Part shown: one piece after another, positions 194 to 53,313 of the stretch
How the letters are laid out: each line of letters opens with the position of its first letter
Numbering within the stretch: the first letter of the stretch is position 1
Assembly: GCA_016183425.1 (NCBI GenBank)
Contig: JACPEP010000036.1
Location: forward strand, 1 to 57,055
Direction: 5' to 3'
Length of the DNA: 57,055 bases
Source of the DNA: Chloroflexota bacterium
Lineage (GTDB): Bacteria; Chloroflexota; Dehalococcoidia; JACPEP01
Notes under the pieces: generated by a model
Seen by the model: only the letters and a program-made list of their open reading frames with translations
Told to the model about the DNA's origin: nothing
The model's database searches: none
Translations under genes and position numbers: made by a program

Positions 194-1834
194 CTAGGTC
201 TGTATCCAGACCTCCCTAAAGTTCCACCGGTTGTCATTAAACCAGGGGATGTAGTTCTTAAGCCGCTTATTGTAAGCCAGACGGGTGCTATTGTAGACGA
301 TAGTCATAAAACCGACCACATCCTCAGTCAAATACTTGTCTACCTCAGAGTATAGTTTTCCCCTCTCCTCCTGGTCATATGTTTGGTCGGCCTTCAGTAT
401 AAGTTGCCACGCCTCAGGGCTCACCTTAGCGCCCTTATATGTAGACTCAGGGTGCAGGTACCAAAAGACATAGGCTTGCGGGTCAGCCCCTGTGCTTGTT
501 CGGCCGATGACCATATCATAGTCACCCTGCTTCCAAAGGTTCGCATACTTTGCTTGCTCCATAGACTGAATCTTTATACGCACTCCTATCTTGCTCAACA
601 TGGCCTGGATAGCCTCCGCTACAGGCATCAGGTCCGGATAATCGGAGCGGATGATAGCGGTCACTTCGAACCCGGTTGGATACCCCCCCTCCGCCAGTTT
701 TGTCCTTGCTTTTTCGAGGTCTAATGAATATCCTTTGACCTTCCCGTAGAACCAGTATGGAGGCCCAAAAGTGCCTTCGGCCGGCTGGAATTTGCCCCCG
801 TAGACAGACTGCGCAATAGCCTGGCGGTCGATGGCGTAAGCAATGGCCTGCCTCACCGCTTTCTTGTCGAAGGGTGGCTTCTCCATATTCATCTGTATTC
901 CCCTGATTCCCATGGCTGGGGTGGATTGCACTTCCAATTGCGGCGATCCCTTCAACTCGTCTAGGGTTGTCACACTCAAGTCGTGGGCGAAGTCGACCCC
1001 GCCTGTTTGAAGCATAATTTTTCTCGTTGTTTCCTCAGGGACCACCATAGTCGATATCCCGTCGAGGTAGGGAAGACCTTTCTGCCAGTAGCCGTCAAAC
1101 CGCACCATTTCCTGACGCTCACCCGACAACCACGCCTTGTGCTGAAAGGGACCGGTGCCCACACCGTTCTGTGTCAAGTCATTCTTGAACTTTTCAACAG
1201 CCGCTGGTGAGACCATAGCCCCTGCTTTATCGGCCATTGTGTTCACCAGAAAGGATGCCGATGGGGCCTTCAAGACGTACATAAGCGTGGACTCGTCAAC
1301 CGCTTGAACCGACTGGACAGCTAGCTCTAGGTCGCGTCTCGAGCCTGCCTTGGTGTCTGGACTGAGTTGCCGGTCATAGTTTACCTTACCAACTGAGGCA
1401 TTGAAATCGCCTCCGTCGTGAAACTTCACGCCCTGTCTAAGCTTAAAAACGACCTTGGTCGGTTCTGGTGTCTCCCAGGATATGGCCAGCTCGGGCCGTA
1501 ACCTTGCCTTTTCATCAAGGAAAATCAGATTATTGTACATCTGACCGTTGGCGATGTGATCGAACGCCCCCGATAAGCTGCGGGCGGGGTCTTCGCCGGG
1601 CATGGCCCCGATTGCCAGTCGTAGAGTTCCTCCATAAACTGGCTTAGCCGCTGGGGTTACCCCTGGCTTCGGCGTAGTGGGAGCTTTCGTGGGAGTGGCG
1701 GCAGGGGCAGCGGCGCAGCCCAATAGGGAAAGCCCCCCCACGCTCATCCCAACTCTTAGGGCGAGTCCCACCGCTTCCCGTCGGGACAGCCTCCGCCCCA
1801 GCTTCTTTGCCCAATAGGTCTGATCCTCTCCCAC
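194..1834 (-). CDS. ABC transporter solute-binding lipoprotein, family 5
   Basis: A family 5 (peptide/nickel/opine type) extracytoplasmic solute-binding protein of 546 residues, the usual length. The N terminus has a Tat-like motif (RRLSRREAVG, residues 14-23), a hydrophobic stretch and a lipobox LLGCA, so it should be a membrane-anchored lipoprotein. A Thr/Pro/Ala-rich linker follows, then the SBP5 core with PFDKKAVRQAIAYAIDRQAI near residue 325. The GTG start at 1834 has AAGGAGGAG upstream. No permease or ATPase gene lies nearby, so partners must be encoded elsewhere. It is a paralogue of the two binding proteins in the Grd operon; all share a YWA motif before the twin arginines. Ligand unknown. 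Confidence 0.9.
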   Translation of the reverse strand: MGEDQTYWAKKLGRRLSRREAVGLALRVGMSVGGLSLLGCAAAPAATPTKAPTTPKPGVTPAAKPVYGGTLRLAIGAMPGEDPARSLSGAFDHIANGQMYNNLIFLDEKARLRPELAISWETPEPTKVVFKLRQGVKFHDGGDFNASVGKVNYDRQLSPDTKAGSRRDLELAVQSVQAVDESTLMYVLKAPSASFLVNTMADKAGAMVSPAAVEKFKNDLTQNGVGTGPFQHKAWLSGERQEMVRFDGYWQKGLPYLDGISTMVVPEETTRKIMLQTGGVDFAHDLSVTTLDELKGSPQLEVQSTPAMGIRGIQMNMEKPPFDKKAVRQAIAYAIDRQAIAQSVYGGKFQPAEGTFGPPYWFYGKVKGYSLDLEKARTKLAEGGYPTGFEVTAIIRSDYPDLMPVAEAIQAMLSKIGVRIKIQSMEQAKYANLWKQGDYDMVIGRTSTGADPQAYVFWYLHPESTYKGAKVSPEAWQLILKADQTYDQEERGKLYSEVDKYLTEDVVGFMTIVYNSTRLAYNKRLKNYIPWFNDNRWNFREVWIQT

Positions 1835-2103: not shown

Positions 2104-3576
2104 ATGGTAGAGGACGCAACAAAAACAAAGAGGGGGGGAAGGGACTATCAAGATTTGCGGGAATGGTTGGCACTAGTGGCGGAAATCGGCATGCTCAGGG
2201 CGGTTAGAGGTGCTGATTGGAACCTGGAAATCGGTACCCTGGCCGAGCTGAATGCCAAAAGAGAAAGGGCGCCCTCCCTTCTCTTCGATGAGATCAAGGA
2301 CTATCCACCGGGCTATCGGGTAACCACCGGTGCCCTGTTGAATGCGGCCACACTGGGGCTTGCCCTCCGCCTGCCCACCGAATACTCGGATCGGGAGCTG
2401 GTGGAGGCCTTGCGGGAAAAGATACCGGAGTGGGAGGCAAAGGCGGAGGAATATCCGCCGCAGTTCGTGGAGAGGGGTACCGTGACCGAGAACATGGATG
2501 TCGGGAAGGCGGTGGACCTCTTGAAGTTCCCCGCTCCCTTTTGGCATGAGCTAGACGGCGGACGCTACATCGGCACTGGCTGCGCCGTCATCACCCGAGA
2601 CCCGGACACCGGGCTGGTGAACCTGGGCACCTACCGGATAATGCTGCATGACAAGACATGCGTGGGATTCTATGCCTCGCCCGGCAAGCATGGCAATATC
2701 CATCGCGCCAAGTACCACGCCCGGGGAGAGCCCTGTCCGGTGGCCATATCCCTGGGGCATGACCCTCTATTGCTGGCGGTAGGCGCGGTGGAGATACCGT
2801 TAGGGGTCTGTGAGTATAACTACGCGGGGGCCATTCGCGGTAAGCCAATGAGGGTTATCAAGAGCGACGTTACCGGACTGCCTATCCCGGCCGATGCCGA
2901 GGTCGTCATCGAGGGATGGTGTCCCCCCAGCGAAGAAAGGCTGGAAGGGCCCTTTGGGGAGTGGACCGGCTACTATGCAGGAGGGCGGGAGCCAGCACCC
3001 ATCATAAACGTGGCGGCGGTTCGCTACCGAGATAGTCCTATCATCTTAGGCTGCCCCCCCAACCGGCCGCCTAACGACCATAGCTACCTGACGTGTGTGT
3101 TCCGCTCGGCGTTGCTCCACGAAGCCCTGGTCAAGGCCGGTGTCCCTGATGTGCGGGGGGTGTGGCGCTGCGAGGCGGGAGGGTCGCGCCTTTGGGTGGT
3201 GGTATCCATCAAGCAGCGCTATGCAGGACACGCCCGTCAGGCCGGCTTCGTGGCCGCCCAGTGCCAACAAGGGGCCTACCTGGGCCGCTACATCATTGTG
3301 GTAGACGAGGACATCGACCCCTTCAATATGAACGATGTTATCTGGGCCCTGTCAACGCGCTCCGATCCCGAGAAAGATATAGACTTTGTTCGGCGCGCTT
3401 GGAGCAGCCGGTTGGACCCCATGATCCCAAAGCCCGCCGCTGGCTACTTCAACTCCCGGGCCGTGATCGATGCCTGCCGTCCTTTTGAGTGGATGAGAGA
3501 CTTTCCCAAGGTCTCCGAGGCCAGCCCAGAGGTGGCGCAGCGGGTACGAGAGAAGTGGCGGGAGGTGCTCTCCTAA
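2104..3576 (+). CDS. UbiD family (de)carboxylase
   Basis: A UbiD-superfamily enzyme of 490 residues; family members use prenylated FMN to decarboxylate or carboxylate aromatic and unsaturated acids. Supporting features are the length, the segment LVNLGTYRIMLHDK (about 178-191), the conserved acidic motif EGPFGEWTGYY (about 281-291) and VVVDEDIDPFN near 400. The ATG has TTAGGAGG just upstream and a promoter at 1958-1987. An MFS gene follows after 45 bases, suggesting catabolism or transport of one small molecule. No UbiX prenyltransferase gene is seen in the window. Substrate cannot be read from sequence. A second UbiD lies at 51946-53313 but is not a close duplicate. Confidence 0.88.
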   Translation: MVEDATKTKRGGRDYQDLREWLALVAEIGMLRAVRGADWNLEIGTLAELNAKRERAPSLLFDEIKDYPPGYRVTTGALLNAATLGLALRLPTEYSDRELVEALREKIPEWEAKAEEYPPQFVERGTVTENMDVGKAVDLLKFPAPFWHELDGGRYIGTGCAVITRDPDTGLVNLGTYRIMLHDKTCVGFYASPGKHGNIHRAKYHARGEPCPVAISLGHDPLLLAVGAVEIPLGVCEYNYAGAIRGKPMRVIKSDVTGLPIPADAEVVIEGWCPPSEERLEGPFGEWTGYYAGGREPAPIINVAAVRYRDSPIILGCPPNRPPNDHSYLTCVFRSALLHEALVKAGVPDVRGVWRCEAGGSRLWVVVSIKQRYAGHARQAGFVAAQCQQGAYLGRYIIVVDEDIDPFNMNDVIWALSTRSDPEKDIDFVRRAWSSRLDPMIPKPAAGYFNSRAVIDACRPFEWMRDFPKVSEASPEVAQRVREKWREVLS

Positions 3577-5926: not shown

Positions 5927-6391
5927 CTAAGAAGATAAACGACGGACTTTCCTCATCGCCGCTGCGATCTTGTCGACCTCAAGGGCTATTTCCATCAACC
6001 CTACCTGCTCTTGGTAGACCTCAGGATCGACCTGCTCCTTGATCTCCGGCTCGGTGATGTGATATACGGGCAGTCCTAACTCAATCCCTGCCAAAGCGCC
6101 CGCGTAGGATGGGTCACCTTTGGTAACTGTCTCGGCGTAGATCTCGGCGCTGTCAGCATCTGGAGAACCCAGCACTACGATCATATTGTCTCGGCCGTGG
6201 GCTTCAACAGCTCGTTTTATGGCTTCTTGACCGTCCAGGTCAAGGGCTCCGGCGGCGGTTCAGACAAAGCACTGAGTTTGTACCAGAACCACTTGGGCTT
6301 GGGCGCTGAGAAGGCATTCGGCGATAGAGGGCCCTTGGACTCCATCTCGTTCTCCGATGACTATCGCCTTCTTACCCTTCAGTTGAACCAT
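5927..6391 (-). CDS. grdA: Selenoprotein A of glycine reductase (Sec at codon 44)
   Basis: Protein A carries the carboxymethyl-selenocysteine intermediate between component B and component C. The reading frame runs from ATG 6391 (AAGGAGGAGGAA upstream) to TAG 5927, 154 residues, the normal GrdA length, with one in-frame TGA at 6262-6260. That TGA is codon 44, exactly the known Sec position, inside QCFVUTAAGALDLDGQ with the partner Cys41. The C-terminal part reads TVTKGDPSYAGALAGIELGL, a conserved GrdA segment. Standard gene finding would call only the part after 6184. It overlaps the thioredoxin gene by 20 bases and is the last gene of the operon. Confidence 0.93.
6226..6244 (-). promoter_or_regulatory. 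Candidate SECIS hairpin in grdA
   Basis: On the minus strand, 15 bases after the TGA, CTTGACC and GGTCAAG form a perfect 7-bp stem with a 5-base loop TGGAC. Bacterial SECIS elements lie just downstream of UGA within the coding sequence, so place and shape fit. Confidence 0.6.
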
Positions 6392-6734
6392 TTCCTCCTC
6401 CTTCAGACACCAGTATTGATCTCACCGAGTCTATTATGGCTTGTTTTTTGACATCGCCAGTCAACCGATTTACCTCTTGCCCCCCGACAAAGAGGAGAAA
6501 GGTCGGCAGGCTCATAACCTTAAGGTTGATGCATAGCCGGCGGTTGTGGGAAGCATCCACCTTCGCCACCTTTAACCGACCGCGACAGCTTTGGGATAGC
6601 TCCGCCACAAAGGGCATCAGGGCCAGGCAAGGCACACAGCTTGGCCCCCAAAAATCCACGAGCACAGGCTCCCTTGCTGCCAAGACCTCCTCATCAAAAT
6701 TGTCCAGGCCGACCTCGACCGGCAGATTATCCAT
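6372..6734 (-). CDS. trxA: Thioredoxin of the glycine reductase operon (CVPC)
   Basis: A 120-residue thioredoxin. The active site is WGPSCVPC (Cys33, Cys36). Its CVPC differs from the common CGPC and matches, as I recall it, thioredoxins of clostridial glycine reductase operons. The cis-Pro region reads MSLPTFLLF near residue 75. It should pass electrons to the selenoproteins; no thioredoxin reductase gene is in the window. The start overlaps the grdC stop by 8 bases and its end overlaps grdA by 20 bases, so it is tightly coupled to the operon. Confidence 0.88.
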   Translation of the reverse strand: MDNLPVEVGLDNFDEEVLAAREPVLVDFWGPSCVPCLALMPFVAELSQSCRGRLKVAKVDASHNRRLCINLKVMSLPTFLLFVGGQEVNRLTGDVKKQAIIDSVRSILVSEGGGNGSTEG

Positions 6735-8190
6735 CTCCCGAATTCCTTTCCAGCAAAAACGACATCCCGTCAGACAGTTGAGTCATCCTCCCCAGGAAAA
6801 GGCTTCCCTTGGCCAAGAACATGGCGTTTGCCATCTGCCCGGCCCTAATCTTGGTTAGGGCATGACCCAAGAAGGGAATGGCCGAAGCAATATGACCCTG
6901 GGTTGGGGAAAAGCCAGGCATGCCGTGCACCTTAATGAAGTGATCCAGATCCCCCCTTTCCATCTCCCCTCGGAGCACGGCGAAGCTGCCGATGGTACGA
7001 TAGTTGGTGCGGGGGACATTGCCGCTGCCCGCGGGCTCGGTGATTTCAGGGTTATGCATCTCGGTAGCATATTTGTTCACCTGCGCTAGCTTCAGCCCCA
7101 GCCGGTCCAGGGGCTCCACCACTAGCTTCTCGATAATGGCTTGCTGGCTAGAGCCAGAGCCGACGTCATGCTTGCCGATGGAATCAAGGCGGATGACCGG
7201 GCTCACGCCATCGTCTCGGCCGACCAGAATGGCGACGGCGGCCAGCACGTCTTCCAAGATAGGCATATCGTGACGAAGATGGCCTCTAAACTTCATCCCC
7301 AGCTTGGCGAAAGAGCCGCCTCCTACTACCACCACGTTCTTGAAGATGCCTGCGGCCACGAGGCTTCCGGCCAGGACGATAGCATGAATGGGCGCGCAGC
7401 AGAAGGCCTTGACATCGGAGCCGGTGGCCGCGGTACAACCGCATAGCTCACCAATAGCCTTGGACAGGCTACCTCCACCCCTATTATATCGGTCCCCCAC
7501 CGCCTCCTCACCACAACCAAGAAGGTACTCAATCTGGGGGACGGTGGCAAGCCCATGGAGCATGAAGCGAAGGGCCATCACGCCCGAGGCCCGTGCCGCT
7601 AGATTCTCGATAAGCACCTCTGGTATCAGAGACTGATCCTCCTCATGTCCCCGCTGAAGACAGCCCACTAACCGGTTCCTTTGATCATAGAGAGGCAGAG
7701 CCTTTTCCTCATGTACCTTTTCTTCGATTCGGCTCTGGGGAACCCCACTGCCCAGCCTCCTAATATCTTGAGATGAGAGGAGAGGGTGCCTTTCCAGAAG
7801 CAGAGCCACTTCTTTGACAATACCTTCTTCCAGAAGCAGCAGGTCAAAGTCATCGCAGATTTTCATCACGCCATAGAATTCCTCTTCGGGCATAATCTCG
7901 CCGAAAAGCCCCCTCCGATGGCCATTGGAGGGAGGGTTCCGGTACCACGGCGTCTCGATGTGCCAGAGGTCGTCCGGATACAGGTTGCCTATGAAGGCCT
8001 GGTGGGGAGGATAGGCAGCAGCAGCTTCAAAACTGCGCAGGCGCTCCAACACCTTGACCAGAAGAGCCGGCTCCTTGGATATCTCTCGAAATGGCTTGGA
8101 GCCATAACGAACCATGCCGGGCACGTGGGCCAGGAAATAGGCTATATCCTTAACTACGGGTGCTACCCGTGGACTCGCAAAGGAATACAA
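6727..8190 (-). CDS. grdC: Glycine reductase component C, beta subunit (GrdC)
   Basis: A FabH/thiolase-fold protein of 487 residues. In clostridia GrdC works with the PlsX-like GrdD to turn the acyl group released from selenoprotein A into acetyl phosphate. Family signs are the N-terminal DIAYFLAHVPGMVRYG, LRSFEAAAAYPPHQAFIGNL and the cysteine-rich CGCTAATGSDVKAFCCAPIH. The open frame extends to 8352, but that would overlap grdE1 by about 145 bases. The TTG at 8190, with AAGGAAAGG upstream, gives a start matching the family. No grdD gene is present anywhere in the window, so either GrdD is encoded elsewhere or GrdC acts alone. Confidence 0.86.
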   Translation of the reverse strand: MYSFASPRVAPVVKDIAYFLAHVPGMVRYGSKPFREISKEPALLVKVLERLRSFEAAAAYPPHQAFIGNLYPDDLWHIETPWYRNPPSNGHRRGLFGEIMPEEEFYGVMKICDDFDLLLLEEGIVKEVALLLERHPLLSSQDIRRLGSGVPQSRIEEKVHEEKALPLYDQRNRLVGCLQRGHEEDQSLIPEVLIENLAARASGVMALRFMLHGLATVPQIEYLLGCGEEAVGDRYNRGGGSLSKAIGELCGCTAATGSDVKAFCCAPIHAIVLAGSLVAAGIFKNVVVVGGGSFAKLGMKFRGHLRHDMPILEDVLAAVAILVGRDDGVSPVIRLDSIGKHDVGSGSSQQAIIEKLVVEPLDRLGLKLAQVNKYATEMHNPEITEPAGSGNVPRTNYRTIGSFAVLRGEMERGDLDHFIKVHGMPGFSPTQGHIASAIPFLGHALTKIRAGQMANAMFLAKGSLFLGRMTQLSDGMSFLLERNSGDG

Positions 8191-8206
8191 CTTCCTCGGC
8201 CTTTCC

Positions 8207-9481
8207 TTAAAACTCCTGTGCGGCGATGGTGTTAAAGCCGATTCGGTTGCATGAGGCCAATAGATTGAGCATTCGAGTCGAGATCTTCCCTCGAGGGTCG
8301 CTGCTAAGAAGAGTGACCACCGATTCCTCTGTCTGGTAGAGAACCTCACCACCGATCACCCTTTTCATGGGAGGTAACAAAATAGTTTCTTCACGGTTGC
8401 CACAGCTAACAATAGCATCAGCTTCGGGAGTGGTAAAAACAAGGGATTGATCGTCACCTTGTGGCCCTGCCAGCTCTTCGATGACAAGAGCAGTTTTTAT
8501 TCCCCCTTCTTCGCACTTTTTGCATATCATCATGAGATTGACCTGGGACGAGCCTCCGTAGTCCCAACCGACGACAGCACCTTGGGCTCCCAAGAAGCGA
8601 GCCAACTTTACCGCATATTCCGCGTTGCGTTCCTTTTCTTGCTGAGAGCGACCTGGGCTGCCGCAAATCACTACCCCAACGAAGTCCAAAGTCTTTCTGT
8701 GTTGATCAAAGAGCGCTCGCACTACCGGAGTATTGCATTGTATGAGGGTCACATTTCGATCGGCGGCATACCTCCATGTAGTATTCACCAGAGCACCGTC
8801 TAGAATCTCGTTGGGATGGAGGACCGTGGGCGTCAGGCCAAGAGGAAGCCCATAAAGGGCACCATCATCGGCGGCAACCCGTATGTAGACTACTTTGGGA
8901 AGGGAGCTCTCTGCCTTCCCCAGTTCAAACACGTCCCACTGGTCCGGTTCCCCCGTGGCGGCAACTCGTCCCAAGTATTCCGCTGCCTTCAATCCCGCCT
9001 GGAGAAGAGCCGAGTCACAAACCTCCACGGAGATGCCCCCTGTCGGGCGAAGAGCCAAGACTATATTGACAGTCCTGGAAAAGGGGCTCCACTGGGCACC
9101 AGGTCCTGACATGTCAATAATAGCCTCTCCGATGCGAGTTTTAACCGTCCTGTCCAGGAGCTCTGCAGCCAGGACCACCGTCACGCCAGCCAAGCGATGG
9201 GTGCGGCCATCGCCGCAAGTATAAGCCGGGCCTAAAAAGCCGGGAAAGACGCTGCCCCTGCCGCTCACCTTACACCGCGGTTCGATAACGTCTAGAACGT
9301 GGATAATGCGAGCCTCCTCTCCCGGGCGAACGATCTCAATGTCTGCCTTCTCAAGGTTAGGATCTTGGAGCAATAGAGCGCGCAATTCCTCCCTATTTAT
9401 ATGAAGCGTTTCATGGGCCAACTTGGTCTGATCCGAAAAAAGGACGTCCTTTACCCAAAATGTCCCCAACTCTAGACGCAT
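8207..9481 (-). CDS. grdE: Glycine/sarcosine/betaine reductase component B subunit (GrdE-like), copy 1
   Basis: A 424-residue homologue of GrdE/GrdG/GrdI, the proprotein that in clostridia is cleaved at an Asn-Cys site to make a pyruvoyl group for binding the amine substrate. Family features are MRLELGTFWVKDVLF, DVIEPRCKVSGRGSVFPGFLG split around residue 64-84, IIDMSGPGAQWSPF (121-134) and HPNEILDGALVN (222-233). Where clostridial sequences, from memory, read GNC after DGA, this one has TTW (Trp236), so the pyruvoyl-forming Cys seems absent. The ATG has AGGAGG upstream. It precedes grdC by 16 bases. Function of the unprocessed form is unknown. Confidence 0.88.
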   Translation of the reverse strand: MRLELGTFWVKDVLFSDQTKLAHETLHINREELRALLLQDPNLEKADIEIVRPGEEARIIHVLDVIEPRCKVSGRGSVFPGFLGPAYTCGDGRTHRLAGVTVVLAAELLDRTVKTRIGEAIIDMSGPGAQWSPFSRTVNIVLALRPTGGISVEVCDSALLQAGLKAAEYLGRVAATGEPDQWDVFELGKAESSLPKVVYIRVAADDGALYGLPLGLTPTVLHPNEILDGALVNTTWRYAADRNVTLIQCNTPVVRALFDQHRKTLDFVGVVICGSPGRSQQEKERNAEYAVKLARFLGAQGAVVGWDYGGSSQVNLMMICKKCEEGGIKTALVIEELAGPQGDDQSLVFTTPEADAIVSCGNREETILLPPMKRVIGGEVLYQTEESVVTLLSSDPRGKISTRMLNLLASCNRIGFNTIAAQEF

Positions 9482-9522
9482 GATGACACCTCCTATTTAG
9501 GGCTGAGCTCTACCGGATTGAC

Positions 9523-11178
9523 CTACTTCTGCTTCCACACCCAGTGTAAATACCAGGACGTATCTGTCCGAGACAGCTTAAAGCCTTTAACCGGCTTATT
9601 GTAAGCCACAAAGTTAGTGCCATGGAGAATGGGAATATTTAGGTATGCCTCTTCCAACATTCGGCGGTCTAGCTCATTGTAGAGATGCCCCCGCTCCTCC
9701 ATGTCATAGGTAGTATTCCCCTTTAACATCATGGCGTCCAGCTCGGGGTATGGGTCCGCAACGCTCTTAACCCGTGGCGCATAGCTGATAAGATTGGAAA
9801 CCACGGTTCGGTGGGGGTCGAGGCCAGTAGTGGTCCGGAAAAAGCGCAACTGATAGTCGCCCGATACCCCCGCCTGGGAGTGCACGGCGTTTTCTACATT
9901 CTTGAGCTTGATTTTGATGCCCACCTTGGCCACCTGGGCCTGAACCGCCTCAGCTATGTTGTCCAGCCCTGGAATCGCTTTGGTTGTCAGCCCTTCGCAT
10001 TCAAAACCATCGGGATAGCCCCCTTCTGCCAGCTTGGCGCGCGCCATTTGGGGGTCATAGGGATAGCCTTTGATATTGGGGTTGTAGAACCAGTAAGTGG
10101 GGTTGCTGCTAAAGAAAGACTCGGCCAAAGGCCAGTCTTTAAAGAGTGATTGCTGAATAGCCTTTCGATCTATGGCATAGGCCACCGCCTGGCGCAGAGC
10201 CTTGTTTTTGAAGGGATCCTTTTTCATATTCAACACAATGCCCCTGAGCACTGGTACTGGCCCACCTTCCACGATAATATTCTCTGTTCTCCTAAGGTCG
10301 TCCAGTACGTCTTGGTCTACATTAGCTATGAAATCGACCTCTCCGGTTTGCAACATTGTTTTTTGCACCATCTTGTCAGGGACAATTTGAATAACAATTT
10401 TGTCAAGGTACGGATACCCCTTCTGCCAGTAGTCGGGAAAGCGTACCATACTGACGCGGGCATCTATTCGAAAGTCTTCGTGCTGAAAGGGCCCGGTGCC
10501 AACGCCACTCCGTCTCAGATCGTTGTTGTACTTTTCAACTGCTTTGGGGGATACAAAGGACATTAAGGTTTCACCAGCAATAGCCATCAAAAAAGATGCC
10601 GAGGGGGCACGTAACCGATAGGCTACAGTATAGTCGTCAACAGCTTCGACGGCTTTCACCTCCTGATTAAGTATGTCCATTCTATCGGACTTGGTCTTGG
10701 GGTCGATGACCCGTTCATAGTTGAACTTAGCAACGGAGGCGTTAAAGGCTACCCCGTCGTGGAATTTGATCCCCGGCTCCAGCTTAAAGATAAACTTGTC
10801 GGGCTCCGGGATCTCCCAGGACTTGGCCACCCAGGGGCGCGGTTTACCTTCCAGGTGAACCTCCACCAAATTCTCGTAAAGTTGCCCCTTGGTCAGCCCT
10901 TCTATACCGCCACCCATAGAAATAGCCGGGTCCTCGTACAACATGGCCGGAGATCCTATCGTTAAAGTGCCGCCGTAGGTGGCCTTAGCGGGGGTGGGGG
11001 TGGGCTGTGGCGCCGTAGGTGTGGCGGCGGCCGGGGCCTTGGTGGGGGTGGGGGCGGCACAGCCCAGAAGGCTGACTCCGGCTACACCCAGGCCCGCTCG
11101 GGCGGCACCCCTCAGTATCTGACGGCGGGACAACCTTTCCCGAAAAACACTTGCCCAGTAATTCTTCCCCTCTTTCAT
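9523..11178 (-). CDS. ABC transporter solute-binding lipoprotein, family 5, inside the Grd operon
   Basis: A family 5 solute-binding protein of 551 residues. The frame is open to 11253, but ATG 11178 with AGGAGG upstream gives an N terminus like its paralogues: KNYWAS, then a twin-arginine motif RLSRRQILRG, hydrophobic segment and lipobox LLGCA, followed by an Ala/Pro/Thr linker. The conserved SBP5 segment KALRQAVAYAIDRKAI lies near residue 305. It sits between grdB1 and grdE1, 41 bases before the latter, so it is expected to capture the substrate of that reductase module. No permease or ATPase gene accompanies it. Confidence 0.9.
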   Translation of the reverse strand: MKEGKNYWASVFRERLSRRQILRGAARAGLGVAGVSLLGCAAPTPTKAPAAATPTAPQPTPTPAKATYGGTLTIGSPAMLYEDPAISMGGGIEGLTKGQLYENLVEVHLEGKPRPWVAKSWEIPEPDKFIFKLEPGIKFHDGVAFNASVAKFNYERVIDPKTKSDRMDILNQEVKAVEAVDDYTVAYRLRAPSASFLMAIAGETLMSFVSPKAVEKYNNDLRRSGVGTGPFQHEDFRIDARVSMVRFPDYWQKGYPYLDKIVIQIVPDKMVQKTMLQTGEVDFIANVDQDVLDDLRRTENIIVEGGPVPVLRGIVLNMKKDPFKNKALRQAVAYAIDRKAIQQSLFKDWPLAESFFSSNPTYWFYNPNIKGYPYDPQMARAKLAEGGYPDGFECEGLTTKAIPGLDNIAEAVQAQVAKVGIKIKLKNVENAVHSQAGVSGDYQLRFFRTTTGLDPHRTVVSNLISYAPRVKSVADPYPELDAMMLKGNTTYDMEERGHLYNELDRRMLEEAYLNIPILHGTNFVAYNKPVKGFKLSRTDTSWYLHWVWKQK

Positions 11179-11216
11179 GGGATACCTCCTGAAACAACTA
11201 ACTTTGCAGAACACCG

Positions 11217-11237
11217 CCCCGTTCTCGAAAAACGGGG
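11217..11237. other. Intergenic hairpin between grdB1 and the binding-protein gene
   Basis: CCCCGTT and AACGGGG (7 bp) enclose a 7-base loop. There is no T-run after it in the direction of transcription, so it looks more like an mRNA processing or stabilising element than a terminator. Confidence 0.5.
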
Positions 11238-11261
11238 TAGAATCATACCACAACCCCCAGT

Positions 11262-12575
11262 TTATTTAACAGTGAAGACCGTCGGCGTCTTCACCTCGGT
11301 TTGAAGAGCCAGCAGTGCCGTTTCCACGATCTGCCTGCGCAGTCCCCTTTCTTCCGCCGAGGAAATACTGGGGTCGCCACAAGGGTAAGCCATGGCAGTG
11401 CCAATTACGATTCGACTCGCTCCTATTCGTTGCGCCAGATCGGGAAGAGCTGTTATGGTAGCGACCGGCAATCCGCTCCGTTCCATTTCCCTTGCCATCG
11501 TTGCGCCGCAACGAGTCCCCGTTCCTCAGGTTCCAGTGAGCACTACCGCATCCACCCCCTGGGCCAGGAGCTCTTTGGCGATTTCATGTGCGTATTTGGT
11601 AGCGCTCTCGACACTGGTTCCATTGCCCACGGTAACGTAATAGTGGTCAAGGAGCTTCTTGAACACATTCTCTTTTTCCATCTCCCGCAGAACATCCAAA
11701 GGGAGCAACCGGTCAGGGTCTTCATCGGCAAACTTGCCGGCCGCCATCCCGTGGGCTGACGTATAGGCGTCTCCGGTGAGATCGTCTATGCCAGCAATGT
11801 CATACTTGATCCATTTCGTTGCCCGGGTCCATTCTAGGCGATCGGGGTTCCCTTTCGGTACGACGCCGGCTTCTGTTACCAAAGCGAGAACGGCGTCTCT
11901 GAGATCGTGGATTGCCGACGGCGGCGGCACAGGGGAGAAAGTGGGCAAAGGCAGCTCAGTGACAAATGATTCACCTTTGAGCTTTTTAAGCAACATCTCC
12001 ACCGCTCGCTGGCCTGGATTCTTGTCGACAAGGACGTTTCGCCGAACCCCTCGAGGTATATATCCTTCTGCTGCCGGAGGACCTATTTGATCGCCTCGGC
12101 CTAGCTTCAGAGCCAGCCCAGCCATCACCGCGGTGACTCGGCGCATGGCGGCCGCCGATTCTCCGCTCTCGACGATGTAGGTCAGGCGCCGACATAGCTC
12201 CACGCCAGGGTTTTGGAGGTGCATGCCGCTTACGACTGGGATGTTTAATCTCTCAGCAACAGTGGTGCAGACATGGGCGCAAGCCAACCCATAGCGGCCA
12301 GCGTCGAAGGCTGGCCCGGCTACCAAAATATCCGGGGATGCCTGGGCAACAAAAGAAAATACCTGTTCCTTTGCCTTGTCCAGGTTTTGATTGAAGTAGT
12401 TGTCGCCGCAAAAGATAGTGCTAACTACCTCTCCTTCCTCCCCTAGGGCTGCCTGCAAGGCAATCCCGGGCCCGATGGGTCCGTAACGCCAGGCAGGGCC
12501 AACGTCAGTCTTCTCTTCACCTCCTATACCAGCAAAGAACTGATTGATATAGTGAGCCACTTTTATCTTGTCCAC
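11262..12575 (-). CDS. grdB: Selenoprotein B of a glycine/sarcosine/betaine reductase-like system, copy 1 (Sec350)
   Basis: A GrdB/GrdF/GrdH homologue, the Sec-containing catalytic subunit of component B that attacks the C-N bond of the substrate. The frame runs from GTG 12575 (GAGAGGAGAGG upstream) to TAA 11262, 437 residues, with one in-frame TGA at 11528-11526, codon 350. The surrounding sequence VVLTGTUGTGTRCGATMARE matches the family Sec motif; the frame continues through GASRIVIGTAMAYPCGDP and ends with ALQTEVKTPTVF, as in GrdB. The N terminus IKVAHYINQFFAGIGGEEK is diagnostic. It carries U-x-x-G-x-x-C where I recall U-x-x-C-x-x-C in clostridia. A parallel copy lies 82 bases upstream. 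Confidence 0.92.
11499..11513 (-). promoter_or_regulatory. Candidate SECIS hairpin in grdB copy 1
   Basis: Twelve bases after the TGA (minus strand) CGTTGC and GCAACG form a perfect 6-bp stem around a GGC loop. The second grdB has the equivalent hairpin. Codons here also encode the conserved RCGAT, so part of the conservation may be protein-driven. Confidence 0.45.
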
Positions 12576-12657
12576 TTACCTCTCCTCTCTGTTTGAAACA
12601 ACTGGTTCCCGAATCCAGGTCCCTCGAAAGGCTTCCCGATCAAAACTCCGAACTACA

Positions 12658-13983
12658 TCAAGGCCCGCTCTTGGCAACGATGAAGACCGTTGGCTCTCCC
12701 ACTTCAGTTTGCAAAGCCTTCAGTGCTGTTTCCACGATCCGTCGGCGCAGCGCTCTCTCCTTTTCAAGGGGTAGCGACGGGTCTCCCACGGGGTGGGGCA
12801 TGCGAACTCCAGCGACGATGCGATTGGCGCCGACGCGCTGGGCTAGATCGGGCAAGGCGGTAATCAGGACGCCAGGAATGCCCGCCCGCTCCATTTCTTT
12901 GGTAAGCGTTGCCCCGCAACGCGTGCCGGTTCCTCAGGTTCCAGTTAGCACTACTGCCTGCACCCCCTGGGCCAGGAGCTCAGTGGCGATTTCCTTGCCG
13001 TATTGTCGACCACTTTCCACACTGGTGCAATTACCCACCGTCACGTAGTAGTGGTTAAGGAGCTGCTTGAATCTTCCTTCCTGCTCCAGCTCCCGCATCA
13101 CATCCAGGGGCACCAGGCGGTCGGGGTCCTCGTTGCCAAACCGGTTATCGTAGCCCCCATGCGCGCTCATAAACTCTTCGCCAGTAAGGTCAGCCTTGCC
13201 CCTTATATCGTATTTGATCCATTTGCTGGCCTGGGCCGATTCCAGGTGATCCGGGTTGCCTTTAGGGACGATCCCGCTCTCGGTCACCAAGGCCACAACG
13301 GCTTCTTTCAAATCCTTCACAGCCAGGGGTGGCTTAACGGCGTCAACGGTGGGCAAGGGCAGCTCGGTGGTAAAGAGCTCTCCTCTAATCTTTTGCAGGA
13401 GCATCTTCACTGCCCGTTCGGCACCGTCCTCCCCTACAAAAACATTGCGTCGCACGCCCCGCGGCAGGTAGCCTTCCACCTCAGGAGTACCCAGAGTTTT
13501 TCTCATTGCCAACTTCCAGGCTAACTCGGCCATGGTCGTAATGGCCTGGCGCATCCCTGCTGTCGTCTCGCCTGTCACCACAATGTAGACCTGCGAACGG
13601 CATAGCCCCACTCCGGGATTGTCCGGATGCTGCCCGCCCACCGCCGGGATCTTCAACCTTTGAACCGCATCCAAACATACGTGAGCGCAGGCCAGACCGT
13701 AGCGGCCGGCACTGAAGGCTGGCCCAGCAACCAGGACGTCCGGGCGATAGCCGGCTATGAGATCGAGAACCTCCCTTTTAGTCCTCTCCAAATCCTCGTG
13801 GAAATAGTTATCGCCGCAGAAGACGGTGCCCACAATCTCCCCCCGCTGGCCCAAAACCTCCTGGAAAGCCTTCCCTGGGCCCACCGGGCCATCCCGAGAT
13901 ACAGGAGGCGTGCCAGCTTTCTCTTCGCCACCAACCCCGGCGAAAAACTGGTTTAAATAATGAACGACCCGAATCTTTGCCAT
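12658..13983 (-). CDS. grdB: Selenoprotein B of a glycine/sarcosine/betaine reductase-like system, copy 2 (Sec350)
   Basis: A second GrdB-type selenoprotein, 441 residues. Start at ATG 13983 (AKIRVVHYLNQFFAGVGGEE) is preferred over the ATG two codons upstream: it has GAGGGGG six bases before it and puts the in-frame TGA (12936-12934) at codon 350, as in copy 1. The Sec context is VVLTGTUGTGTRCGATLTKE; after it come GANRIVAGVRMPHPVGDP and ALQTEVGEPTVF. Clearly related to copy 1 but well diverged, so probably a different substrate rather than a recent duplication. It follows grdE2 by 37 bases, forming a component B unit with it and the upstream binding protein. U-x-x-G-x-x-C motif again. Confidence 0.92.
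12906..12922 (-). promoter_or_regulatory. Candidate SECIS hairpin in grdB copy 2
   Basis: Eleven bases after the TGA (minus strand) GCGTTGC and GCAACGC form a perfect 7-bp stem around a GGG loop, at the same place as the hairpin in copy 1. Confidence 0.5.
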
Positions 13984-14020
13984 AACCATCCCCCTCTCTG
14001 TGCGCTTGGCATAGATTGCC

Positions 14021-15262
14021 TTAAGATTGACGAGCGGTAAGGCAATGGAAACCCAAACGGTTTGTAGAAGCCATCAAATAGCGCACCGGAACCTCGAGCC
14101 TCCCTTTGGCCTCCCAACCCGTCTTGTAAAGAGTCTCGCCGCCGATAACCCGCTTCATTTCCGGCAGCTCAACGACTTCATCAGTAATACCTGGACTGAC
14201 GATAGCATCGGCTTCCGGCGTTGAGAAGATCAAGGACTGGTCCATCTCCACCACAACGAGCACCGTCTTTATCCCTAGTTTCTCACACTTCTGACAGGTG
14301 AGCATCAGGTCAAACTGCGAGGAGCCTCCCCAGTCCCAGCTTATGATAGCCGCCTCCGCCCCCAGAAGTCGCGCCAGCTTCGACAGATGCTCGGCGTTGC
14401 GGTCCTTTTCCCATTGAGAACGCGCCCCGCTGCCAGACATTACCACACCCACGAAGTTTAAATCCTTCCCGTGATGCCGATAGAGGGCTAAAACCTCCGG
14501 ATTGTTTAGTTGTACATACGTAACATTCCTCTCGGAGGCAAATCCCCAATTCAGGTTCACCACGGCGCCATCCAAGATCTCGTTAGGATGAATCAGAGTG
14601 GGCGTCATGGCTTCGCTTTTAGCCCCGTAAATGGCAACATCGTTAGTCCCACTCGCCACCCGGATGTAGGCCACCTTAGGAAGACCAGGGGTAACCGGGC
14701 CCAGCTCGAAGGTCTCCACCTGCTCTGGTTGGAGGTCAGCGGTGCTCTTGGCCAGATACTCCGCCGCCCGCAGCCCGCCCAAGAGAAGGGAAGTGTCGTA
14801 TTCTTCGGGTGTCAGGCCCGAAACGGGACGAAGCCCCACCACTACGTTCACTGTTTTACCGAAGGGACTGTACTCTACTCCTGGCCCTGACATGTCGATG
14901 ATAGCCTCGTCCCACTGGGTCGGCCTGAGCCGGTGGGGTATGTCAGCGGTCTGCACTACGGTTACCCCCCTCAGCCTGTGGGTACGCCCCTCGCCAACAG
15001 TGTGAGGCGGCCCCAGTAAACCGGGAAAGGTACTGCCATGTCCGGCAACTTTGAAACGAGGCTCCACTACATCTAGAGCATGCACAATGCGAGTCTCATC
15101 ACCAGGATGGACTATTTCAACATCGATGGCCCCGAGGTTCGGGTCTTGCGCCAAAAAGCTCCGTAGTCCATCCCTGTCGATGGACAGAACCCCGTCTGAG
15201 AGCTGAGTTTTATGGCCAAAGACAGCATCTTTCACCAAAAACGTGCCCCACTCCAACCGCAT
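14021..15262 (-). CDS. grdE: Glycine/sarcosine/betaine reductase component B subunit (GrdE-like), copy 2
   Basis: A 413-residue GrdE-type subunit, paralogous to the one at 8207-9481. It shows MRLEWGTFLVKDAVFG, DVVEPRFKVAGHGSTFPG, IIDMSGPGVEYSPFG (121-135) and HPNEILDGAVVN (225-236). After DGA it reads VVNLNWGFAS, with Trp239 where clostridial GrdE, from memory, has the cleavage Cys at about 242; so it too should remain uncleaved and lack pyruvoyl. The ATG has GGAAGGGGGAG upstream. It lies between a binding-protein gene and grdB2 in the same direction. The partner GrdB is most likely copy 2. Confidence 0.88.
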   Translation of the reverse strand: MRLEWGTFLVKDAVFGHKTQLSDGVLSIDRDGLRSFLAQDPNLGAIDVEIVHPGDETRIVHALDVVEPRFKVAGHGSTFPGLLGPPHTVGEGRTHRLRGVTVVQTADIPHRLRPTQWDEAIIDMSGPGVEYSPFGKTVNVVVGLRPVSGLTPEEYDTSLLLGGLRAAEYLAKSTADLQPEQVETFELGPVTPGLPKVAYIRVASGTNDVAIYGAKSEAMTPTLIHPNEILDGAVVNLNWGFASERNVTYVQLNNPEVLALYRHHGKDLNFVGVVMSGSGARSQWEKDRNAEHLSKLARLLGAEAAIISWDWGGSSQFDLMLTCQKCEKLGIKTVLVVVEMDQSLIFSTPEADAIVSPGITDEVVELPEMKRVIGGETLYKTGWEAKGRLEVPVRYLMASTNRLGFHCLTARQS

Positions 15263-15374
15263 GGGAAACTCCCCCTTCCATCGCTTCCCCAGTTCCCCGA
15301 TAACGTCGCCAAGATGTACCTAAGTCCTCTTCGAGACTGGGAAGCTTTGTCGCACTCTTACCCGGCGTTCAACT

Positions 15375-16979
15375 CTACGATACCCAGACTTTGGTCAAGT
15401 TCACCGTGTCCGCCTCCAGAGGCAAAAGGAAACCCTGAACCCGTTTGTTGTAAGCTACCCGGTTCGTGTCGTGGGCGATCACATATTGGAAATGAACCTC
15501 GTCCAGTAGCAGTTGCTCCAATTCGTTGAACAACCGTTTTCGTTCTGCTTTGTCGTAGGTTTGATCGGCCGCGATTATCAACTGGTCTATCCGCGCGTTT
15601 GGTTGGCATGAATTCTTGCAGTAGGGCGCATCCTTCATGAGGTTGGCGGTGTTATGCCTAAAAGGATCCGTGGGACCGCTGGTCTTTCCCAGCAGAGCCT
15701 GGAATTCACCCGCTCTCCACTGAGCGATCCCCTTGGCATACTCTGGTACGACAACTTTCACTCGGATGCCTATTTTCCCCAGTTGGGCTTGCACAACCTC
15801 AGCACCCGCCGTATGATTGGGGAAACCTGACCAAGCGACCAACTCCAGGTCAAAACCATTGGGGTATCCTCCTTCCGCCAGTTTGGCCTTTGCTTTCGCT
15901 AGATCGTAGGTATAGCCCTTAATGTTAGGATTGTGGAACCAGTATTGAGAACTATAGTAGCCCAGGGCTGGTTCGGCCATCCCATCGAGAACAGTATCGG
16001 TGATTGCCTTTTTGTCAATGGCGTAGGCAATGGCTTGTCGCAGTGCTTTATTATTAAGAGGTGGCTTCAACCCGTTGAGAGCGAGCCCCAGAGGCGCCAA
16101 GGAGGGGCGCCATTTGGCCACCAAGTTTGGGTCTTCCCCCAAGGTCTTCATGTATCGAGGCTCGACTCTGTGTATAAAATTCAGCTCACCAGTCTTCAAC
16201 ATGGTTAGCCTGACGGTTTCATCAGGGATGATTCTGATCAGAACCGTGTCCAGATAGGGCAGTCCTTTTCCCCAATACTCAGGGAACCTTTGGAAAGTGA
16301 GATGGTCGTCCATGACCCATTCCCCATGTTGGAAGGGGCCAGTGCCCACTCCTTTCTGGGTCAAATCGTTGTTATATTTCTTAACTGCCGCTGGTGAGAC
16401 TATGACGCCCAGGTTCTCGGCGGCGACATTATAGAAGAAAGAAGCCGATGGGCCAGGCAGGCGATATGTCACGGTGAAGCTATCCGTCACCTCCACAGAC
16501 TTTACCGCCTGCTCCAGACGTGGTTTATCGTAGGCTTGAGTGGCCGGATCCATAATACGATCGTAGTTGAACTTCACCGCAGCGGCGTCAAAATCGGTTC
16601 CGTCGTGAAATTTGACCCCCTTCTTTAGCTTAAAGACGATGCGGTCGGGCTCTGGGATCTCCCATGACTCGCCGAGATCCGGCACAATCTCAGCATCAGG
16701 GCTTAGGTTGCATATTCCATGATAGACTTGTTCTCGTACCGGCCTCTCCGCGCCCCCGGCTAAAGGCCGATGAGGGTCCGCACCAAGCATCTGGGACACG
16801 GCCATCGTCAGTTTGCCCCCCGAGACCGGTTTAACAGCGGTGGGGGTTGCTTCTTTGGCCGCTGCACAGCCCAAAAGTGATACCATCGCCAGCCCCACGC
16901 CCCCCCGGGCTGCTCTACCAAGCATCTCCCGACGGCTTACTCGTCTTCGCAACGCCCAATAGTCCCTCTGCCCTTCCAT
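15375..16979 (-). CDS. ABC transporter solute-binding lipoprotein, family 5, first gene of the Grd operon
   Basis: A family 5 solute-binding protein of 534 residues. The N terminus has RDYWALRRRVSRREMLGRAA, a Tat-type signal, then VSLLGCAA as lipobox. The core segment NKALRQAIAYAIDKKAI lies near residue 305. ATG 16979 has AGAGAGGAG upstream, and a promoter lies about 180 bases further up (17160-17187). Being first in the operon and next to grdE2-grdB2, it probably supplies the substrate of that module. It differs much from the binding protein at 9523-11178, which supports two distinct ligands. Cognate permease genes are not in the window. Confidence 0.9.
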   Translation of the reverse strand: MEGQRDYWALRRRVSRREMLGRAARGGVGLAMVSLLGCAAAKEATPTAVKPVSGGKLTMAVSQMLGADPHRPLAGGAERPVREQVYHGICNLSPDAEIVPDLGESWEIPEPDRIVFKLKKGVKFHDGTDFDAAAVKFNYDRIMDPATQAYDKPRLEQAVKSVEVTDSFTVTYRLPGPSASFFYNVAAENLGVIVSPAAVKKYNNDLTQKGVGTGPFQHGEWVMDDHLTFQRFPEYWGKGLPYLDTVLIRIIPDETVRLTMLKTGELNFIHRVEPRYMKTLGEDPNLVAKWRPSLAPLGLALNGLKPPLNNKALRQAIAYAIDKKAITDTVLDGMAEPALGYYSSQYWFHNPNIKGYTYDLAKAKAKLAEGGYPNGFDLELVAWSGFPNHTAGAEVVQAQLGKIGIRVKVVVPEYAKGIAQWRAGEFQALLGKTSGPTDPFRHNTANLMKDAPYCKNSCQPNARIDQLIIAADQTYDKAERKRLFNELEQLLLDEVHFQYVIAHDTNRVAYNKRVQGFLLPLEADTVNLTKVWVS

Positions 16980-17159
16980 CGTGCTCCTCTCTACGTTTCG
17001 CTGCTCGTTGAACCCTAGCTGTTGTTTGTGTACAACCGAGCTATGGTGACTTCATCCCCCTCTTTAAAAAAAGGTGTGAAAACCCTCGGCTCTGTCACTT
17101 CGGTTTCCTCACGCATTGGCTGATTCTCGTTTCATGTAGAACCCGGTCGATACAGGGAC

Positions 17160-17187
17160 AGTATAATCTTCGCTACCGAGATGTCAA
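17160..17187 (-). promoter_or_regulatory. Promoter of the Grd operon
   Basis: Minus strand: TTGACA (17187-17182), 16-base spacer, TATACT (17165-17160). It lies in the gap before the first gene of the operon (16979) and just after the DUF1232 gene, leaving a leader of about 170 bases. Confidence 0.6.
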
Positions 17188-27979: not shown

Positions 27980-28120
27980 CTCTTATCCCGAGTGGTGGAG
28001 GGACTGGCCCAGTGAAGCCCGGCAACCCGTCCTCGGCCCGCGACGCAGTGGCCAACGCTCTAAGTCGCCCCGCGGACACGGTGCCAATTCCGACCCCGCC
28101 CTGGCGGGGAAAGATGAGAG
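27980..28120 (+). promoter_or_regulatory. SAM-I riboswitch (S box)
   Basis: The conserved S-box blocks are present in order: GTGGTGGAGGGACTGGCCC, GAAGCCCGGCAACC, GGTGCCAATTCC and a closing GATGAGAG. The P1 helix pairs CTCTTATC (27980-27987) with GATGAGAG (28113-28120) with one G-U pair. It should bind S-adenosylmethionine and switch off transcription of mtnA and the genes behind it through the terminator that follows. Confidence 0.95.
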
Positions 28121-51945: not shown

Positions 51946-53313
51946 TCACTCCAGATACTCCCTTAGAACAATGGCCTCGGTGCCGGGCACCCTTATCTCC
52001 TCCGGGTAGTTGGCCTTGCGGGTGGCGTCGATGCCCATCTTGGTGACGATGTGGGAGCCGCCCACGGGGTCGTAGGAGGCGGGATCCAGGGGGGAGCCCC
52101 GGGCATGGGTCACCATGAAGGTGTCGGTGTCCGCCCGCAGGCGGGTGGCCATGGCGTGAAGCACCTGGCTGTCGTCCAGGATGTCCACGTCCTTGTCCAC
52201 CACGATGACAAACTTGAGGAAGGGGTCGGCGGCGAAGGCAGCCATGGCGGCGTTCTTGGGGTCGCCCTCCATGATCTTATCCATGGCCACGTAGCAAATG
52301 AAGCGGCACCGTCCTGAGAGGGGCATGTGCACCGCCGTCACCGTGGGGCAGGCGATCTTCACCGTCCGGAATATCATGCTAGAGCGCACCACTCCGGTAA
52401 GAAGGAGGTTATCCGGGTGGCCCACGAAGCAGTTCTGATAGTAGGCATCGTGGCGGCGGGTGAGGGCCTGTACGATGACCACGGGGTTGTTTCTCATTGG
52501 GCCGTAGGTGCCCGGGTACTCCCCGAAGGGGGCCTCCTTCTCTCGCACACCGGGGGGAATGATGCCCTCCAGCACCATCTCCGCCTCGGCGGGGACCTCC
52601 AGGTCTACCGTGCGACACTTCACCAGAGGCAGCGGCTCCCCCATCACTGCCCCCGCCACAGCGAATTCGTCCACCTCCAGGGGGGTGAAGCTCATGCAAC
52701 CCAGGTAGAAGGCGGGGTGGTGGCCGACGACCACCGCCACCTCCGTGGGACGGTTCCGCCGATCGTTCTTCTGCCATATGTAGTGGCCGTGGGCCGTCTG
52801 GGAGATCTGGATGCCGAACCTGTCCCTGCCCTGGAGCATGAGGCGGTATATGCCGGCATTGCGGACGCCGCTGTCCGGGTCTTTCATAATGATGAGCCCC
52901 AGGGTTATGTAGGGGCCGGCGTCCCGCTCGTGGTAGGTCACGATGGGAAGCTGGGTACAGTCCACCGCCTCCCCCAGGGCCACCACCTCTTGCACCGGGC
53001 CCGAAGGCACCAGGCGGGGAGGAATGGGGTTATCCTCCCAGCGGCCGTAGACCCGCAGGAACTCCGGGATGCCCCCCTCCACCCCCACCGCCATGAGGAG
53101 CCGCCTCACGTCGGCGTGCATGTTGGACACCACGGGAAAAGAAGAGCCCTTAACCTGATGGAAAATGACGGCGGGGAACCTCTTCTCCTGCTCCAGTCGG
53201 GCAAGCACCGCCGTGAGCTCGAATCGGGGGTCCACCTCCCGCCGCACGTGGGCCAGGTGCTCCGGTGCCGCCTCCTCCAGGTAGGCGATGAAGTCGCGCA
53301 GGTTTTTACTCAT
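51946..53313 (-). CDS. UbiD family (de)carboxylase
   Basis: A 455-residue UbiD-superfamily enzyme using prenyl-FMN. Family parts: LRDFIAYLEEAAPEHLAHV at the start, GVRNAGIYRLMLQGRDRFGI, EAPFGEYPGTYG with the conserved Glu and FVIVVDKDVDILDDSQV. It overlaps korC by 8 bases and precedes the PreA-like gene by 15 bases. Probably decarboxylates (or carboxylates) an aromatic or heteroaromatic acid feeding the other enzymes. No UbiX gene seen in the window. Confidence 0.9.
   Translation of the reverse strand: MSKNLRDFIAYLEEAAPEHLAHVRREVDPRFELTAVLARLEQEKRFPAVIFHQVKGSSFPVVSNMHADVRRLLMAVGVEGGIPEFLRVYGRWEDNPIPPRLVPSGPVQEVVALGEAVDCTQLPIVTYHERDAGPYITLGLIIMKDPDSGVRNAGIYRLMLQGRDRFGIQISQTAHGHYIWQKNDRRNRPTEVAVVVGHHPAFYLGCMSFTPLEVDEFAVAGAVMGEPLPLVKCRTVDLEVPAEAEMVLEGIIPPGVREKEAPFGEYPGTYGPMRNNPVVIVQALTRRHDAYYQNCFVGHPDNLLLTGVVRSSMIFRTVKIACPTVTAVHMPLSGRCRFICYVAMDKIMEGDPKNAAMAAFAADPFLKFVIVVDKDVDILDDSQVLHAMATRLRADTDTFMVTHARGSPLDPASYDPVGGSHIVTKMGIDATRKANYPEEIRVPGTEAIVLREYLE

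Follow-up and report, generated by a model that had tools for sequence, protein, structure and literature searches.

Textbooks present glycine reductase as the model of soluble energy conservation by way of acetyl phosphate, and in the mechanism proposed for this enzyme class (Grd) a pyruvoyl carbonyl holds the amine substrate as a Schiff base. Stadtman's work reportedly identified protein C as the acceptor of the acetyl group and linked it to acetyl phosphate; the active thiol of component C lies in GrdD. Grd genes in metagenomes are now taken as a sign of glycine-to-acetate-plus-ATP metabolism. That several B complexes can feed a common reductase has already been stated, as has the finding that the fluoroacetate reductase subunit FarE, like the betaine reductase subunit GrdI, lacks the pyruvoyl-forming cysteines and is no proprotein (PMC10838667). 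Here we analysed a nine-gene operon at positions 5927-17187 of a 57,055-nucleotide stretch of DNA from a Chloroflexota bacterium of the class Dehalococcoidia (the window), in which an earlier note had seen a selenium-dependent, glycine-reductase-like operon. We conclude with high confidence that the operon encodes a Grd-type selenocysteine (Sec) reductase with two non-canonical component B modules and no detectable GrdD.

The nine genes, all on the minus strand with intact reading frames and intergenic gaps of at most 112 bp, follow the transcription order SBP1, GrdE1, GrdB1, GrdB2, SBP2, GrdE2, GrdC, thioredoxin and GrdA, where SBP1 and SBP2 denote family 5 solute-binding proteins (SBP5). Coordinates, short gaps, family scores and a promoter match (Table 1) bear out the earlier reading of nine leftward genes as one operon, and the gene content agrees with its two B modules beside single copies of A, C and thioredoxin. 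Promoter-like sites in the region were no more numerous than in shuffles, the one ahead of SBP1 being the best match by far. As the first module is ordered SBP-E-B and the second B-SBP-E, the layout does not fix which E subunit pairs with which B.

Three in-frame UGA codons, one each in GrdB1, GrdB2 and GrdA, can credibly be read as Sec, because tRNA-Sec (76.6 bits) and SelB (325.6 bits) are encoded in the host genome (a 2.70-Mb, 52-contig draft, 95.3% complete) and GrdB genes have a covarying hairpin downstream of their UGA. This 7-bp hairpin, resembling a Sec insertion sequence (SECIS), is common to Acetoanaerobium, Peptoclostridium and Enterococcus; across 18 GrdBs 96.8% of its cells were paired and 14 cells had changed on both sides, and its covariation score was equalled in 0 of 500 shuffles and lost when the partner was slid, with the caveat that the same bases also code for a conserved peptide. 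The outer pair is G-C in GrdB1 and U-A in GrdB2, a compensatory change, and folding energy alone (z-scores of -0.5 to -1.6) was not decisive. Against TIGR01918, the Sec-containing GrdB family, the two GrdBs scored 518.2 and 527.0 bits (cut-off 65.45), with UGA at the family position. The selenium dependence anticipated in the earlier note is supported by tRNA-Sec, SelB and the hairpin covariation, and the locus has the features of a Grd-type selenium-dependent reductase in the broad sense, namely a Sec GrdB, a CxxU GrdA, component C beta and Sec decoding.

The active-site motifs depart from this common ground. Glycine and sarcosine reference E subunits carry SGNCVSACDK or SGNCVAPCDK as the pyruvoyl-forming site, and betaine GrdI has SGSFMPCSSK there, without the pyruvoyl cysteines. 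At the two cysteine positions GrdE1 has W/S and GrdE2 W/A, so both share with betaine reductase a predicted lack of a pyruvoyl proprotein. Both GrdBs read TGTUGTGTRC instead of the canonical TSTUGTCTRC, and so are without the cysteine of UxxC and the STUG serine; of the UxxCxxC motif (UGTGTRC in the window) the second cysteine alone is kept. Judging by these motifs, Schiff-base binding of the substrates is improbable, and the loss in both GrdEs argues against primary and secondary amines; the earlier proposal of other N-containing small molecules as substrates fares poorly on this point. A PDB search for GrdE returned nothing.

GrdB1 and GrdB2 are 62% identical, GrdE1 and GrdE2 56%, and in maximum-likelihood trees the two window GrdBs were sisters (support 100/100), as were the two GrdEs (100/99). 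The glycine, sarcosine and betaine references grouped apart from the window pairs with support of 97/95 in the GrdB tree and 100/99 in the GrdE tree, on a small reference set comprising glycine (Acetoanaerobium, Photobacterium), sarcosine (Peptoclostridium) and one betaine (Enterococcus) type without FarB/FarE sequences, where Acetoanaerobium and Photobacterium were labelled glycine type by motifs and operons rather than by assays of those strains. Judged from these trees, the two B modules are sister duplicates that have diverged, and the phylogeny proposed as a check in the earlier note placed both GrdB/GrdE pairs outside the glycine/sarcosine/betaine clade. Family models gave a concordant picture: the window GrdBs scored 510.6 and 505.1 bits against the glycine GrdB equivalog TIGR01917 (cut-off 602.2), which a GrdB of one class relative (G238) passes with 636.9, and against the sarcosine models the GrdBs reached 529 and 522 (NF040794, cut-off 800) and the GrdEs 285.7 (GrdE1) and 298 (NF040793, cut-off 780). 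Scores against the D-proline reductase models were below cut-off too (PrdB 105 and 83 versus 300; PrdA 28 and 32 versus 700). What separates the operon from canonical glycine reductase is the GrdB score, the GrdE pyruvoyl cysteines, the GrdB UxxCxxC motif and GrdD. A similar GrdB was seen in a Chloroflexi metagenome-assembled genome (59% identity over 71 residues), and a genome-contig scan with a two-sequence GrdB alignment returned four loci only, its patterns being too specific.

GrdD (NF040747) had no match in the operon or in the host genome. Among 13 class relatives with a GrdE or GrdB gene, of which G301 is assembled in one contig (95% complete) and G381 in six (94%), no genome gave a match above cut-off; the same held for four further genomes, namely one Chloroflexi without a GrdC match and three Deltaproteobacteria that each have GrdC. 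The same model gave 552 bits on Enterococcus GrdD, and a local GrdD query matched only the Acetoanaerobium, Photobacterium and Enterococcus reference loci. Acetate kinase was absent from 12 of 12 genomes tested, a set that leaves out the three Deltaproteobacteria, and Pta had no convincing match in them; weak Pta matches in four lay on or beside stretches with weak GrdD matches, so they are probably PlsX-like. Genes with the Succ_CoA_lig domain of ADP-forming acyl-CoA (coenzyme A) ligases occurred in all 12, and in the host genome the genes for the alpha and beta subunits stand side by side and adjoin two acetyl-CoA hydrolase/transferase genes.

GrdC differs along the same division. All 14 GrdCs from genomes lacking GrdD (11 from the class, three from Deltaproteobacteria) stop shortly after the KGSLF block, whereas the three GrdD-partnered ones all extend about 30 residues past it in what looks by eye like a helix. 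In alignment, the conserved cysteine of GrdC falls on the conserved one through which KAS III enzymes take acyl groups from CoA. A doubled cysteine, FCCAP, was considered as a marker of GrdD-less GrdC and dropped, being missing in G301, G073 and the Deltaproteobacteria.

Gene positions confirm the earlier statement that an SBP5 stands beside each module. The nearest solved relatives of SBP1 are 5u4o, AgaA (6hlx) and YliB (1uqw), and those of the window SBPs together include YliB/GsiB and dipeptide-, nickel- and agropine-binding proteins. Such diverse ligands mean that SBP5 membership does not predict the ligand; the peptide/opine assignment of the earlier note holds for the family only. A third SBP5 gene (194-1834, minus strand), 43-44% identical to SBP1 and SBP2, lies away from the grd genes; the SBPs share 43-44% identity.

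Comparable arrangements were found in relatives. In G073, from another family of the class, a B-E-B-E-C-A cluster (L029, G073:C45, 5289-14646) has a single C and a single A gene for its two B modules, shows neither pyruvoyl cysteines nor GrdD, and carries an ADP-forming acyl-CoA ligase alpha gene directly upstream, with a family III CoA-transferase further upstream beyond an MFS gene. G301 holds five GrdB genes, and several of these have SBP5 and Opp-type permease genes beside them that point the same way; G011 has an SBP5 near GrdE. Binding-protein genes next to B modules, and neighbours linked to CoA, both recur in relatives, where such genes are perhaps abundant. As separate observations, a gene resembling a NitT/TauT-type SBP by eye lies directly upstream of GrdB-GrdE in a Deltaproteobacterium (L021, 8008-9042); several GrdE-like genes in G005 and G011 (L023-L028) stand without a full GrdB beside them, in L025 next to paired genes that look by eye like family III CoA-transferases; and of the GrdAs found, the one in a GrdC-GrdA fragment of G005 comes closest to that of the window.

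On balance we lean, by a small measure, towards the following chain as a whole: two pyruvoyl-free modules, fed by ATP-binding cassette (ABC) transport, would share GrdA, thioredoxin and GrdC, the acyl group would pass to CoA, and ATP would be made by acyl-CoA ligase. Each SBP5 lipoprotein would deliver a small carboxylated compound to an ABC permease whose genes lie outside the operon. GrdE/GrdB would bind this X-CH2-COO- with no Schiff base to a pyruvoyl group, and the GrdB Sec selenolate would displace X, as the motif losses and the analogy with betaine and fluoroacetate reductases suggest; X would then likely be a leaving group that needs no Schiff-base activation, for example a quaternary ammonium, sulfonium or halide. 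By homology, the carboxymethyl group would move to the GrdA Sec and be reductively cleaved with thioredoxin, and the KAS III-like GrdC would take up the acyl group in thioester linkage to its cysteine. With neither GrdD nor acetate kinase, GrdC or a partner may hand the acyl group to CoA, from which an ADP-forming acyl-CoA synthetase could make ATP. A wider generalisation, which we put forward tentatively and as falling short of probable, is that a GrdD-free lineage (14 class genomes and three Deltaproteobacteria) conserves the energy of reductive C-X cleavage as acyl-CoA via GrdC and not as acetyl phosphate, the twin modules widening its range to a pair of substrates taken up by ABC transport, neither of them an ordinary amine.

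Several points weigh against this chain. Only the fold of GrdC and its gene neighbours point to CoA as acceptor, and an acyl-CoA ligase gene was seen next to the cluster in a single relative (G073). The genomes in which GrdD is missing are drafts, of which the two best among the relatives are 94-95% complete in one and six contigs, and acetate kinase and Pta may be missing class-wide anyway, in which case their absence is not independent of that of GrdD. Because the GrdD-partnered GrdCs form one clade, the link between tail and GrdD may reflect a single event. Pyruvoyl loss and GrdD loss are uncoupled: family f63 has pyruvoyl-type GrdE/B and still no GrdD was found, which ruled out the idea that the one accompanies the other. 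No permease gene was recognised near the window SBPs.

Other explanations share parts of this evidence. Both modules might be divergent betaine reductases acting on quaternary ammonium osmolytes (glycine betaine or close analogues), with the rest of the chain unchanged: GrdI also lacks the pyruvoyl cysteines, its HPNEVLDG resembles HPNEILDG of the window, and betaine is the best-known pyruvoyl-free substrate. This is unlikely, if worth keeping in mind, as the window GrdBs score 437 and 448 bits against the GrdH model NF040795 (cut-off 775), the betaine reference groups with the glycine and sarcosine ones, and betaine reductase is served by a BCCT transporter instead of an SBP5, a family in which we know of no betaine binding. 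A role as reductive dehalogenases of haloacetates or similar acids, akin to FarEB, would suit an organism apparently from a class rich in dehalogenators, and the parallel extends to FarE lacking the same cysteines and FarB having lost its conserved Cys motif, as the window GrdBs have lost UxxC; we consider it quite improbable, given GrdE scores of 161.6 and 143.9 bits against FarE (NF053623, cut-off 675), an operon without an MFS antiporter or radical-SAM gene, and the oddity of SBP5 as a haloacetate carrier.

An ordinary acetyl-phosphate system, with an unrecognised GrdD substitute or GrdD itself in the unassembled ~5% of the 52-contig draft, would agree with acetyl phosphate being the sole product shown for this enzyme class, and would have to explain why GrdD is also missing in the 13 other class genomes, one of them in a single contig, why neither acetate kinase nor Pta is there to use acetyl phosphate, and why the GrdC tail is lost; we judge it improbable. 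Little probability likewise attaches to the SBP5 genes being unrelated neighbours and not uptake parts of the modules. The third SBP5 away from grd genes, the lack of a permease in the operon and a possible (uncounted) abundance of SBP5 in such genomes speak for that view, and it is countered by the shared strand, the short gaps and the placing of one gene beside each module, by the SBP5 genes at GrdBE in G301 and near GrdE in G011, and by the NitT/TauT-like gene next to GrdB in the Deltaproteobacterium. Least credible, at a very low probability, is a decayed or redox-only system with GrdB as a Sec peroxidase or detoxifier in place of a catabolic reductase; GrdB reportedly has peroxidase activity, and UxxC and the pyruvoyl residues are indeed gone, but none of the nine frames is broken, a compensatory change between GrdB1 and GrdB2 preserves the SECIS stem, GrdA, GrdC and thioredoxin are retained, and two modules are maintained.

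Outside the operon, the host genome encodes two short PrdB-like proteins with in-frame UGA (PrdB scores of 202 and 184 bits, below the cut-off of 300; Table 1), and similar short GrdB/PrdB-like matches occur in more than 100 of 393 class genomes. The window further contains an S-adenosylmethionine riboswitch (RF00162, 80.4 bits; 27980-28120, plus strand) ahead of an mtnA-like gene and then methionine-salvage-like genes, and two UbiD-family decarboxylase genes (2104-3576, plus; 51946-53313, minus), the latter adjoining a 2-oxoacid:ferredoxin oxidoreductase cluster (53306-55872).

Table 1. Features of the Grd operon and of the two PrdB-like loci; positions refer to the window unless a genome contig is given.
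Feature	Position	Strand	Evidence and remarks
Promoter-like element, sigma-70-like, TTGACA-N16-TATACT	17160..17187	-	11/12 consensus match only; 181 bp upstream of SBP1
SBP1, family 5 solute-binding lipoprotein	15375..16979	-	PF00496 295.7 bits; SRRxxL signal, LLGC lipobox by eye
GrdE1, component B subunit without pyruvoyl cysteines (NLNWGFASERN)	14021..15262	-	PF09338 373 bits
GrdB1, component B selenoprotein, TGTUGTGTRC	12658..13989	-	UGA codon 352 at 12934-12936; PF07355 473.7 bits
UGA and SECIS-like hairpin of GrdB1	12890..12936	-	7-bp stem GCGUUGC/GCAACGC
GrdB2, component B selenoprotein, TGTUGTGTRC	11262..12575	-	UGA codon 350 at 11526-11528; PF07355 473.4 bits
UGA and SECIS-like hairpin of GrdB2	11482..11528	-	7-bp stem UCGUUGC/GCAACGA
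SBP2, family 5 solute-binding lipoprotein	9523..11253	-	PF00496 273.6 bits; internal start at Met before KEGKNYW possible
GrdE2, component B subunit without pyruvoyl cysteines (NTTWRYAADRN)	8207..9481	-	PF09338 384 bits
GrdC, component C beta subunit, thiolase/KAS III-like, FCCAP	6727..8190	-	NF040746 641.5 bits, cut-off 450; TTG start proposed
Thioredoxin, CVPC active site	6372..6734	-	PF00085 81 bits
GrdA, selenoprotein A, motif CFVU	5927..6391	-	UGA codon 44 at 6260-6262; NF040748 212.3 bits, cut-off 130
Short PrdB-like, GTTUPVCNRSGG	G000:C23:26703-27191 (L086 5386-6345)	-	PrdB profile
Short PrdB-like, PAUPLCHQSVG	G000:C17:29916-30326 (L087 5446-6606)	+	PrdB profile

The missing GrdD, Pta and acetate kinase, the lost GrdC tail, the lost UxxC cysteine and the two-module cluster of G073 are points that the earlier note had missed. 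Its claim that a dual module had not been described was overstated, since PMC10838667 gives the principle of several B complexes per reductase, and so was the novelty it saw in a non-clostridial setting, as Dehalococcoidia Grd appears in PMC9751293. Among the papers searched, none on GrdD loss or on CoA as acceptor was found. A widespread Grd form lacking GrdD, in genomes that lack acetate kinase, would alter how Grd genes in metagenomes are read, and it makes testable the role of GrdC alone and a B-module chemistry beyond glycine, sarcosine, betaine and fluoroacetate.

Among known systems, the GrdEBCA clusters from Lost City (PMC9469722) and the Dehalococcoidia Grd (PMC9751293) resemble the window in that their operon lists come without GrdD; the passages found read the clusters as glycine reductases making acetyl phosphate, and they neither mention GrdD nor describe a pyruvoyl-free or twin-module form. 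The genomes G123, G229 and G238 are possibly relatives of these clusters. Fluoroacetate reductase FarEB of Synergistota shares with the window a specialised pyruvoyl-free B module, common A and C components and the Cys motif lost in FarB, but has other operon partners, lies far from the window GrdEs by FarE score, and has grdD among the grd clusters of its host strain, as given in a figure legend of PMC10838667. Betaine reductase GrdHI has the pyruvoyl-free GrdI and the HPNE.LDG motif in common with the window, although it falls in a separate clade, comes with GrdD and a BCCT transporter, and keeps UGTCTRC in GrdH. Sarcosine reductase GrdFG is the best NCBIfam match for GrdB1 and both GrdEs, though far below the cut-offs, and its GrdG carries the NC..PC pyruvoyl site that the window GrdEs lack, in a separate clade. 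Glycine reductase GrdABCDE of Peptoclostridium and Acetoanaerobium has the same GrdA with CFVU Sec, Sec GrdB, GrdE-family subunit, GrdC and thioredoxin in one operon; compared with it, the window is without GrdD, the GrdE pyruvoyl cysteines, the GrdB UxxC, the GrdC tail and a genomic acetate kinase, and has instead two B modules with SBP5 genes.

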